A stretch of DNA of 38,629 nt from Dehalococcoidia bacterium (lineage in GTDB: Bacteria; Chloroflexota; Dehalococcoidia; GIF9; AB-539-J10). The position numbers and the translations under genes were made by a program. The notes beneath the pieces are model-generated. The model worked only from the letters and a program-made list of their open reading frames with translations. It did not search any database and was not told where the DNA came from. The stretch covers positions 1 to 38,629 of the forward strand of contig JAGGYM010000065.1 in assembly GCA_021162545.1 (NCBI GenBank), read 5' to 3'. Shown here in pieces: positions 21,495-25,105 of the stretch (within the stretch, counting starts at the first letter, position 1; every line of letters begins with the position of its first letter).

Positions 21495-21496
21495 TT

Positions 21497-21520
21497 GCAA
21501 GTGCAACCTGTTGCACTTGC
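21497..21520. promoter_or_regulatory. Putative Zur operator 1 (perfect palindrome)
   Basis: Two perfect 10-base arms, GCAAGTGCAA and TTGCACTTGC, around CCTG. It lies just upstream of the Fur-family gene. Its right arm overlaps the likely -35 (TTGCAC, 21511-21516) of a promoter with -10 TATGAT (21535-21540). The -10 ends 8 bases before the ATG. Alternatively the stem could end dtd transcription, but no T-run follows. Confidence 0.65.
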
Positions 21521-21548
21521 TTGCTCGCTTCTGCTATGATTTCCTCAG

Positions 21549-21968
21549 ATGAGCTGCCACAAGGTGCTCCAGGAGAAAGGTTACCGGATTACACCGCAGC
21601 GCATGCTGGTCATCGAAGCTCTGCACAATGCCGATAGTCACATTAGCGCAGAGGAAATATTCCAGCAATTGCACGCGCGCTATCCCTATAGCAACATTTC
21701 CACCGTCTATCGCACGCTGGAGTTGTTGAAAAAATTGAATCTGGTGACGGAAACTGACTTTGGCGAGGAAAGAGTTCGCTATCATGTGGCGGAAAAGAGC
21801 CACCATCATCACCTGGTCTGTCGCAGATGCGGCAGGGTGATAGATTTAGACGAATCTGCGTTATATCCGCTGAAGGGCGTTTTGCTCCGTGATTATGACT
21901 TTGAAGCTGATTTGAGGCATATGGCTATTTCAGGTGAGTGCAGCGAGTGTCGCAAGAAGAGAGAATAA
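21549..21968 (+). CDS. zur: Fur-family metal regulator, probably Zur
   Basis: 139 residues. An N-terminal winged helix (GYRITPQRMLVIEAL, then NISTVYRTLELLKKL for recognition) precedes the metal-binding dimerisation domain. H85-H88 and C91/C94 occur in SHHHHLVCRRCG, and C131/C134 in CSEC, giving the structural Cys4 zinc site. Zur is chosen over Fur or PerR because znuA, znuC and znuB follow directly and share an operator-like palindrome. It should bind DNA when zinc is replete and repress uptake. No ribosome binding site is visible at the ATG; the -10 is 8 bases away, suggesting a leaderless mRNA. Autoregulation is likely through operator 1. Confidence 0.87.
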   Translation: MSCHKVLQEKGYRITPQRMLVIEALHNADSHISAEEIFQQLHARYPYSNISTVYRTLELLKKLNLVTETDFGEERVRYHVAEKSHHHHLVCRRCGRVIDLDESALYPLKGVLLRDYDFEADLRHMAISGECSECRKKRE

Positions 21969-21981
21969 AAAATTTTAGCCC

Positions 21982-22005
21982 CTTATTGCAATTAGTTGCA
22001 AGTGC
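21982..22005. promoter_or_regulatory. Putative Zur operator 2
   Basis: In the 60-base gap between zur and znuA: TTGCAA-TTAG-TTGCAA (21986-22001) followed by GTGC. It shares the 11-mer TTGCAAGTGCA with operator 1 (21996-22006 versus 21496-21506). Aligned on the centre, the inner TGCAA/TTGCA halves match operator 1 exactly. Confidence 0.55.
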
Positions 22006-22028
22006 ATGAAATCTCAAGGGGGAGAAAT

Positions 22029-22868
22029 ATGAAGAGAAAAATTCTGGGGAGCATGGTAGCGTTATTCCTGGTGGCAGCTTTGCTGCTACCTCTATCCTGT
22101 GCCAGCCCTTCAGCCGACGTCATGGCGGGGAGTTCACTTATAGCAGGCATAGTTCATGACGTGGCCGGTGAGAAGATAGCAGTCCGCACCCTGGTCCCGC
22201 CGGGCATGTGCCCGGGACATTATGACGTCAAGCCCAGCGATGTTGAAGCCCTGGCGGAAAGTAAAGCACTGCTCATTCACGTTTGGCAGCAGAAGATGAA
22301 GAATATAACTGGCCTCATCGAGGCTGCCGACAATCCTGAACTCGTCATTAAAGTTATCGCGGTCGAGGGGAACTGGATGGCACCACCGGTTCAGGTTGAG
22401 GCACTGGATAAAATTGCGCAGGCTTTGGGCGAGATAGATGCGGGGAACGAAAGGTACTATCAGCAGAGGGCAAAGGAACGGCGGCAGGTGATCTTAGATA
22501 AAGGGGAGGAAGTACAGGCCAGACTGCAGGAGGCGAGGCTAGACGAGGTAAAGGTAATTTGCTCCGAAATGCAGCAGGGGTTTGCCGGGTGGGCTGGGTT
22601 TGATGTCGTGGCTACTTATGGCCGGCCGGAAGAACTGAGCGTGGCCCGGGTGGGAGAGCTGATAGAACAGGCCAGAGGGGCAGGGGTGACTCTGGTCATT
22701 GACAATCTCCAGAGTGGTGACACGTCGATGAGCCAGGCCCTGGCAAATGATATCGGAGCTGCTCAGGTAACTGTATCCAACTTTCCCGGGGGGTTTAAAG
22801 GCACCGAGACCTGGGAAAAGGCGATAGACAGGAACGCTGATTTGTTGCTTGAGGCTTTAGCAGGGTAA
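22029..22868 (+). CDS. znuA: Metal ABC transporter substrate-binding lipoprotein (ZnuA-like)
   Basis: 279 residues. N-terminal KRK, a hydrophobic stretch and a lipobox ending LLPLSC with the lipidated cysteine C24. The protein is therefore anchored outside the cytoplasmic membrane. It belongs to the ZnuA/TroA cluster (SSLIAGIVHDVAGEKIAVRT, then VPPGMCPGHYDVKPSDVEAL, usually PPGxDPHxYEPxPSD). The canonical three histidines are not all obvious and no His-rich loop is present, so it is a diverged member. Zinc is inferred from the adjacent Zur-like gene and operators; manganese or iron cannot be excluded. ATG 22029 follows GGGGGAGAA. First gene of the transporter operon, 10 bases from znuC. Confidence 0.83.
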   Translation: MKRKILGSMVALFLVAALLLPLSCASPSADVMAGSSLIAGIVHDVAGEKIAVRTLVPPGMCPGHYDVKPSDVEALAESKALLIHVWQQKMKNITGLIEAADNPELVIKVIAVEGNWMAPPVQVEALDKIAQALGEIDAGNERYYQQRAKERRQVILDKGEEVQARLQEARLDEVKVICSEMQQGFAGWAGFDVVATYGRPEELSVARVGELIEQARGAGVTLVIDNLQSGDTSMSQALANDIGAAQVTVSNFPGGFKGTETWEKAIDRNADLLLEALAG

Positions 22869-22878
22869 AGGAAATAGT

Positions 22879-23664
22879 ATGGGAGATATAGTCATCAGCC
22901 TCAAGGACGCCGTGGTTTCTTACAGGGAGGATGTAGCTTTGCGAGGGGTCTCTCTGGAGGTAGAGAGAGGAGAGTTCATCGGCATCATTGGGCCCAATGG
23001 TGCCGGTAAAACTACCCTGCTCACCGTAGTTAACGATCTGGGCAAACTGGTTCATGGTCAGGCCCGGGTCCTGGGAGTGCCGGTGTGTAGAAGAAATGGC
23101 ATCAAGTTGAGGAAGCGCATTGGTTATGTGGCTCAGGCGGAAAACATCGACCCCAGACTGCCTATCAGCGTCAGGGAGACGGTGATGGTAGGTTACTATG
23201 GTCGCCTGGGGCTATTTCACCGCCCAACGGAAGATCAATGGAAAAATGTAGATCGGGTGCTGGATCTGGTTGGCCTGTCTCACCTTTCTCGCCGCCCCAT
23301 AGGGCACCTCTCCGGAGGTGAATATCAAAGGGCGGCCATTGCCCGGGCTTTAGTTCAGCAGCCCGAGATTTTCCTCCTCGATGAGCCTACAGCTTCTGTA
23401 GACCCGCAAGCCCAGAGGGAGATCTTGAGCTTGATACAGCTTATCCATAGTCAGTATCACATGACCACGCTATTTGTCACGCATGACCTCGAAACGCTGC
23501 CCTCTATATGTCAGCGGCTTGTCCTTATGAGAGAAGGCCAGATATGGAAAGAGGGAAGCCCAGGGGAGATGCTTGGAGAAGAGGTCTTGAGACAGCTGTA
23601 TGAAGCAGGGGTTTCTGTTCCTGCTGAAGGAGGGAGTGGCAAATTCCCTCGTTGTGGCTGGTGA
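22879..23664 (+). CDS. znuC: Metal ABC transporter ATPase (ZnuC-like)
   Basis: 261 residues. Complete ABC ATPase: Walker A GPNGAGKTT (38-46), Q-loop in YVAQAENIDPRLP, signature LSGGEYQRAAIARAL, Walker B FLLDEPTASVD, and the switch histidine in VTHD. It drives metal uptake with the adjacent permease. AAAGGAA precedes the ATG. Its TGA overlaps the likely ATG of znuB (TGATG). Confidence 0.9.
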   Translation: MGDIVISLKDAVVSYREDVALRGVSLEVERGEFIGIIGPNGAGKTTLLTVVNDLGKLVHGQARVLGVPVCRRNGIKLRKRIGYVAQAENIDPRLPISVRETVMVGYYGRLGLFHRPTEDQWKNVDRVLDLVGLSHLSRRPIGHLSGGEYQRAAIARALVQQPEIFLLDEPTASVDPQAQREILSLIQLIHSQYHMTTLFVTHDLETLPSICQRLVLMREGQIWKEGSPGEMLGEEVLRQLYEAGVSVPAEGGSGKFPRCGW

Positions 23665-24506
23665 TGGGAATGGATTTGTCTGTTTTTCAATACCAGTTCA
23701 TGCAAAACGCTGTCCTTGCCGGGTTGTGTGGAGGTGTAACGTGTTCTATCGTCGGCGTTTTCGTGGTCACCATGCACCTCTCTTTCATAGGAATATGTAT
23801 TGCTCATGCAGCTTTTGCCGGCGCCTTACTTGGCGTCTGGTTGGGGTTCAATCCTTTAATCGGAGCATTAATTTTCAGCCTTGCTTCTGCAGGCATCATT
23901 GGCCCCATGGCTGACCGGGGGGAATTAAATCCTGATACTTCTATAGGCATCGTTTTTTCCCTCATGCTGGGACTGGCTTTCCTTTTCATGGGTCTGATGC
24001 CGGGAGCCAGGACGGAAGCCCTGAGCCTGTTCTGGGGAAGCATACTGACCGTCAACGGGGGAAATCTGATATTCCTTGCTACAGTAATGGTTGTAATTGT
24101 TGCCCTGCTGGTTATCTTCTACAAGGAAATCCAGGCGGTAATCTGCCATCGCCAGGTAGCCCTGGCTGTGGGCATCCCGGCAACCCTTGTTTTCTATGGA
24201 TTGTTGTTCTCCACGGGGGTCTCTGTCGCTGCTTCCCTCCCGACCATTGGGGGGCTACTTATTTACAGCCTGATTCTCAACCCAGCCGCAGCCGCTTACC
24301 AGCTTACCTATAACTTAAAAAGGATGATTCTCATTGCCGTTGCCTTCGGCGTCGCTTCTTGCTGGGTTGGGGTGGCAGCATCCTATCTCCTGGACCTCCC
24401 TTCGGGAGCCTCTATTGTAATTACTTCATCTGTTATCTTTGGTCTGGCAGCGGCGTTTTCCCCCAAGAGAAAGGTAAAGAAGTGGCAGCGAGGTCCGGCA
24501 AGTTAG
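23664..24506 (+). CDS. znuB: Metal ABC transporter permease (ZnuB-like)
   Basis: 280 residues, an ABC-3 family integral membrane protein with about 7-8 hydrophobic segments. Family hallmarks: FMQNAVLAGLCGGVTCSIVG near the N-terminus, LSFIGICIAHAAFAG, PDTSIGIVFSLMLGL, and GLLIYSLILNPAAAAYQL. It forms the membrane channel for ZnuA-delivered metal. ATG 23664 overlaps the znuC stop by one base, implying coupled translation. TTG 23652 would add four residues. The C-terminus is short and basic (SPKRKVKKW). A methyltransferase gene starts 2 bases after its stop. Confidence 0.88.
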   Translation: MGMDLSVFQYQFMQNAVLAGLCGGVTCSIVGVFVVTMHLSFIGICIAHAAFAGALLGVWLGFNPLIGALIFSLASAGIIGPMADRGELNPDTSIGIVFSLMLGLAFLFMGLMPGARTEALSLFWGSILTVNGGNLIFLATVMVVIVALLVIFYKEIQAVICHRQVALAVGIPATLVFYGLLFSTGVSVAASLPTIGGLLIYSLILNPAAAAYQLTYNLKRMILIAVAFGVASCWVGVAASYLLDLPSGASIVITSSVIFGLAAAFSPKRKVKKWQRGPAS

Positions 24507-24508
24507 CC

Positions 24509-25105
24509 ATGCAACTACAGGAGTATTTTGACAGATTGGCTCTGACCTGGGACGAAGGGGTTACTCAAGAGGGAGTAGCTCTCCTTGGGGAGATCGTTCG
24601 AGGTCTGGAAATTAGAGCAGGAAGTCGCGTGCTTGACATTGGCAGTGGCACCGGTGTTCTCCTGCCTTTTCTGGCTGAGGCAGTTGGCACAGAAGGGAGA
24701 ATTATAGCGCTGGATTTCTCACGGAAGATGCTCCTTCAGGCTAAAGCCAAGGAATCCTCCTCTGGCGCAGCTTACACTCAAGCTGATGTTATGGCTATTC
24801 CCTTGCAAGGTAACTGTGTTGATCTGGTTCTCTGCAACAGCACCTTCCCCCATTTTAGCGATAAAGTTGGGGCGATGAAGGAAATGATCAGGGTGCTCAG
24901 GAATGATGGCAGACTGGTTATCTGCCACACGATGAGTCGCGAAGCAATTAATTGCCTTCACCGATCTATCGGAGGAGTGGTTGGCAATGACTTCCTGCCC
25001 GGTGAAGTTGAATTGAAAGAAATGGCGAAGCTCGCGGGACTGGCAATAACTTCCCTGGAAGATGGCTCCAGGCGATACCTGGTCATTGGAGAGAAGGAAG
25101 CTTGA
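24509..25105 (+). CDS. Class I SAM-dependent methyltransferase
   Basis: 198 residues, Methyltransf_11 type. Motif I VLDIGSGTGVLLPFL, motif II GRIIALDFSRKML, then QADVMAIPLQGNCVDLVLCN and VLRNDGRLVICHTM. It is complete and soluble. The substrate is unknown. Its ATG lies 2 bases after the znuB stop, so it is almost certainly in the same operon and perhaps under the same zinc control; the ribosome binding site is weak, suggesting coupling. A role in a zinc-binding small molecule or in zinc-limited metabolism is speculation. A longer open frame upstream overlaps znuB and is not used. Confidence 0.82.
   Translation: MQLQEYFDRLALTWDEGVTQEGVALLGEIVRGLEIRAGSRVLDIGSGTGVLLPFLAEAVGTEGRIIALDFSRKMLLQAKAKESSSGAAYTQADVMAIPLQGNCVDLVLCNSTFPHFSDKVGAMKEMIRVLRNDGRLVICHTMSREAINCLHRSIGGVVGNDFLPGEVELKEMAKLAGLAITSLEDGSRRYLVIGEKEA

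Follow-up and report, generated by a model that had tools for sequence, protein, structure and literature searches.

The window analysed here, a stretch of 38,629 nucleotides from a Dehalococcoidia bacterium (contig JAGGYM010000065.1), carries a Fur-family regulator gene followed by the operon of an ABC importer, with a palindromic site upstream of each (Table 1).

Table 1. Coordinates of the regulator and importer genes and of their candidate control sites, as positions in the window.
Feature	Position	Strand	Details
Operator 1 (candidate)	21495..21520	.	TTGCAAGTGCAACCTGTTGCACTTGC; TGCAA-N4-TTGCA core 21502-21515; outer TTGCA half-site on left
Putative sigma-70 promoter of regulator gene	21511..21540	+	-35 TTGCAC 21511-21516; 18-bp spacer; -10 TATGAT 21535-21540
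Nur-like Fur-family regulator, 139 aa	21549..21968	+	PF01475 E 5.7e-31; best PDB match 3eyy, 107.6 bits
Operator 2 (candidate)	21986..22006	.	TTGCAATTAGTTGCAAGTGCA; TGCAA-N4-TTGCA plus outer TGCA half-site on right
Substrate-binding lipoprotein, cluster A-I fold	22029..22868	+	PF01297; AlphaFold2 pLDDT 90.9; canonical Zn/Mn ligand set absent
ABC transporter ATPase	22879..23664	+	PF00005
ABC-3 family permease	23664..24506	+	PF00950 E 8.5e-55
SAM-dependent methyltransferase	24509..25105	+	PF13847; usual fourth gene of relatives' ABC operon

Read directly from the sequence, positions 21497-21520 of operator 1 form a perfect 10-4-10 palindrome, GCAAGTGCAA-CCTG-TTGCACTTGC, in agreement with the original prediction. 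Operator 2 has the composition TTGCAA-TTAG-TTGCAAGTGCA and stops 23 bases short of the likely ATG (22029) of the ABC binding-protein gene, which was preferred over the mechanical TTG start at 21996 because GGGGGAG stands before the ATG. The earlier description of a second site shortly before 'znuA', sharing an 11-mer and TGCAA-N4-TTGCA with the first, is thus correct: the core is exact in both sites, and the 11-mer TTGCAAGTGCA lies at 21495-21505 and 21996-22006. In the 1,388,427-base (1.39-Mb) genome, exact TGCAA-N4-TTGCA occurs only at these two sites and the reversed-pattern control does not occur at all, so that the palindrome observation stands. Apart from these two sites, the genome has a single near-match, at C1:5554 with one mismatch, which begins within or just upstream of a ribosome-hibernation-factor-like ORF and is probably due to chance; the same probably holds for GCAATTAATTGC at 24944-24955 of the window, which falls within the methyltransferase ORF. 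A third half-site, TTGCA-N2-TGC, is present at sites upstream of importer genes, which explains the 11-mer common to both window sites. Most sites carry such an extra half-site (TTGCA-N2-TGCA), so that two dimers might bind there in overlap.

The -35 hexamer TTGCAC of the regulator gene is also part of operator 1, as had been claimed, and the same geometry was found in homologues, where 31 of the 41 scored upstream sites have a -10-like hexamer (a match to TATAAT at four or more of six positions) exactly 17 bp past the right half-site TTGCAA. The right half-site is usually a -35 box, with a -10 at promoter spacing, so that the operator shares sequence with the -35 box of the regulator gene. 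Such a double use of the right half-site would be consistent with autorepression.

A search of related genomes revealed that the site is conserved upstream of the regulator. Close homologues of the regulator are present in 46 of 61 relatives, and 40 of the 79 named regulator homologues (loci L092-L171) have GCAA-N4-TTGC in the 150 bp upstream, against 0.18 expected from 160-bp windows drawn at random from these loci; the remaining half or so have no such match in that interval. Other spacer lengths gave 0-4 matches each (three for N5), with the exception of N10, which gave 20 because extra half-sites overlap. Across the 61 genomes, TTGCAA-N4-TTGCA yielded 94 matches over the two strands and the reversed control 11, counts that are not independent, since a palindrome is matched once on each strand. 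One homologue is preceded by a perfect 12-4-12 palindrome, TTGCAAATGCAA-CTTG-TTGCATTTGCAA (L023). Sites were also found before ABC and CbiM genes of relatives, including two loci (L174 and L176) in which the distance to the ABC gene is the same as for operator 2; many substrate-binding protein or CbiM genes of relatives have no N4 site in the 220 bp upstream. Away from the regulator, N4 sites precede two small membrane proteins (132 and 98 aa, no Pfam match) at L072 (497-1191), L074 (692-1407) and L098, accompanied at L072 by a CbiO-like ATPase fragment; these membrane proteins are possible further members of the regulon.

The regulator is probably Nur-like and nickel-responsive, rather than a Zur. 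Compared with solved structures, it matched best the Nur of S. coelicolor (107.6 bits; PDB 3eyy, PMC7055735), followed by Fur at 88.6 bits and Zur structures at 62 bits or less, and a recognition-helix stretch of 12 residues, NISTVYRTLELL, is the same in the window regulator and Streptomyces Nur. The Streptomyces Nur box, tTGCaa-N5-ttGCAA (PMC3919588), has the same TTGCAA half-sites, and nickel-uptake genes would be targets in both systems. The window sites differ in having an N4 spacer and an extra outer half-site, and in place of nikABCDE or sodF the regulon would contain an importer of the A-I-type ABC or CbiMNQO kind. Spacer length describes the DNA site rather than the Nur protein family. 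In a Thermoleophilia MAG (L170, 2724-2740), TTGCAA-N5-TTGCAA lies upstream of a regulator homologue with CbiM downstream, as if the spacer were phylum-dependent.

The sensory ligands of S. coelicolor Nur appear to be only partly kept. H31, H86, H88 and H124 are conserved and aligned with Nur sensory-site positions, while the remaining M-site and Ni-site positions differ; of the ScNur Ni-site histidines, presumably just one is retained. His79 replaces the Zur sensory Cys (ScZur C79, EcZur C88) and is invariant across all sequences of alignment A1, whereas this Cys is essential in characterised Zur proteins (PMC6103462). Three more Fur-family genes above the cut-off are encoded in the genome, namely Zur-like, PerR-like and Fur-like, and the Zur-like paralogue retains Cys at the sensory position. 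Phylogeny was dropped as proof of Nur: neither the 91-row nor the 27-row tree separates Nur from Zur decisively, and the grouping of the Chloroflexota regulators with Zur was not rejected in a comparison with long branches and few columns (AU test, p = 0.198).

In relatives, the genes downstream of the regulator are either those of the window-type operon, for binding protein, ATPase, ABC-3 permease and methyltransferase, or those of CbiMNQO. The binding protein was found in 15 and CbiM in 23 of the 61 relatives, and the regulator is also present in 15 of these 15 and 22 of these 23 genomes, respectively. The two importers rarely share a genome, as only three regulator-bearing genomes have both (one-sided Fisher p = 0.009, indicative only, because the genomes share ancestry). 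In CbiMNQO-type loci, CooT (PF10133) and a 72-aa protein often stand between regulator and importer; the latter, of about 72 aa (LLDYWIEHN...; L043 2482-2715 and homologues), has no Pfam match and lies between regulator and CooT in many relatives. One locus (L048) encodes a [NiFe]-hydrogenase large subunit within the same 8 kb as the regulator. In another case (G044), a window-type operon follows hypD and hypE, both identified from their sequence and not by profile search, away from the regulator and with N4 sites between. At L036, L039, L040 and L097, the next genes after the regulator or a site encode proteins with an FmdE domain and/or a DksA-type zinc finger. The original prediction had suggested looking for the motif near zinc genes: at the homologous loci examined, with neighbours labelled by a limited reference set, no zinc-gene context was recognised, and CbiMNQO, CooT and hypDE were found instead.

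The binding protein had been labelled ZnuA, which holds as far as the profile is concerned (PF01297), although the usual metal ligands are missing from the protein's family. The solved fold nearest to its AlphaFold2 model is AztC (Z 25.6 over 248 residues, rmsd 2.9), and PsaA scores Z 23.6. Like ZnuABC, AztABC and PsaABC, the importer thus has the fold, Pfam family and ABC-3 permease of cluster A-I, from which it differs in its changed ligand positions, a shorter loop and a methyltransferase in the operon. The ligands of PsaA are H67, H139, E205 and D280, of which E205 and D280 are also named in PDB titles. In the sequence alignment, the His67 position is an invariant Gly63 in the binding-protein family, that of His139 falls inside a deleted loop, and Glu205 aligns with a non-conserved position; the Asp280 segment, judged as such and not by structural superposition, reads SNFPGG (Asn/Ser). 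Since the canonical His-His-Glu/His-Asp ligands are gone, zinc binding in the ZnuA manner is unlikely. H84, M117, N226, Q228 and N251 are invariant in the family. We propose the protein as a candidate receptor for nickel or a nickel chelate, the chelate being a guess, and the methyltransferase could possibly help to synthesise or modify a metal chelator.

Regulator, box and gene context together point to nickel as the effector metal. Nickel is favoured over zinc because of the Nur best match, the Nur half-sites, the sensory His, the Zur-like paralogue and the gene context of relatives. The genome encodes the beta subunit of acetyl-CoA synthase, C-terminal domain included, and acetyl-CoA synthase is a nickel enzyme. 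It is the only one among the nickel enzymes sought, since searches of the genome for hydrogenase (PF00374), CODH (PF03063) and LarA were empty. At L213 (G000:C34), acetyl-CoA synthase is encoded, yet no PF03063 (CODH/prismane) protein was found in the genome.

The same architecture could sense Co2+ to supply the corrinoid proteins of the Wood-Ljungdahl pathway, which we consider unlikely. Anaerobes of this type need corrinoids, and CbiMNQO, an annotated cobalt transporter that can carry cobalt, holds the same place in many relatives; however, protein and half-sites are Nur-like, and CooT and hypDE are nickel-enzyme genes. The window importer is a different transporter from the CbiMNQO/NikMNQO ECF systems that share its type of regulator and operator in relatives, and a search of the genome for CbiM was negative. 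Cobalt acting through B12 control was rejected, as no cobalamin riboswitch was found in the window or in 11 homologous loci; cobalt itself is an unlikely rather than a rejected effector.

A zinc switch, with the regulator sensing zinc and repressing a ZnuABC importer by way of the lineage-specific Zur box suggested in the original prediction, is very unlikely. The part of that prediction that stands is a conserved, lineage-specific operator of the adjacent Fur-family regulator; zinc does not, the features being Nur-like instead. In common with the Zur systems of E. coli, Streptomyces and Bacillus, the regulator belongs to the Fur family and, on the first reading, has a PF01297-type importer as its target: it adjoins a PF01297/PF00950 ABC operon, the structurally nearest solved receptor, AztC, binds zinc, and the tree does not reject a grouping with Zur. 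Zinc was nevertheless rejected as the default reading on the sensory Cys, the separate Zur-like paralogue and the gene context, with CbiMNQO, CooT and hypDE in the regulon of relatives; the half-site also differs from that of these Zur systems, and the receptor family has no canonical Zn/Mn ligands. It is hardly credible that another factor binds the sites or that they are kept as promoter elements only, for even though the right half also serves as a -35 box, sites with a third half-site also precede ABC and CbiM genes, they track the regulator gene, and the reversed pattern is rare.

The locus quite probably encodes a Nur-like, nickel-responsive Fur-family repressor with two operators, controlling the regulator itself and the importer operon. 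With sufficient nickel, a metal-loaded regulator dimer would occupy TGCAA-N4-TTGCA. At operator 1, it would cover the -35 box of the regulator's own gene, and at operator 2, just before the ribosome-binding site, it would block either initiation or elongation into the importer operon, that is, the genes for binding protein, ATPase, permease and methyltransferase. When nickel is short, regulator gene and importer operon would be derepressed, and the importer would then supply nickel, at least for acetyl-CoA synthase.

We propose that this represents a nickel regulon of the Nur type whose box has an N4 spacer and which drives a candidate, previously unrecognised importer of nickel or a nickel chelate. 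For Chloroflexi or Dehalococcoides, the open-access literature searched yielded no account of a regulon for nickel or under Nur, which is not proof of absence. More tentatively, the Dehalococcoidia may possess a nickel-specific branch of cluster A-I, in which a receptor without Zn/Mn ligands binds a nickel chelate, perhaps modified by the co-encoded methyltransferase, under Nur-type control through the N4 box. Cluster A-I ABC importers are described as zinc, manganese or iron importers (PMC7731109), and the operon would thus add a candidate class of nickel importers to this family. If the proposal is correct, genes annotated as zur and znuABC in Dehalococcoidia would have to be reassigned to nickel, Nur would reach beyond the Actinomycetota with an altered spacer, and a nickel switch would be available to anaerobes that rely on nickel enzymes.
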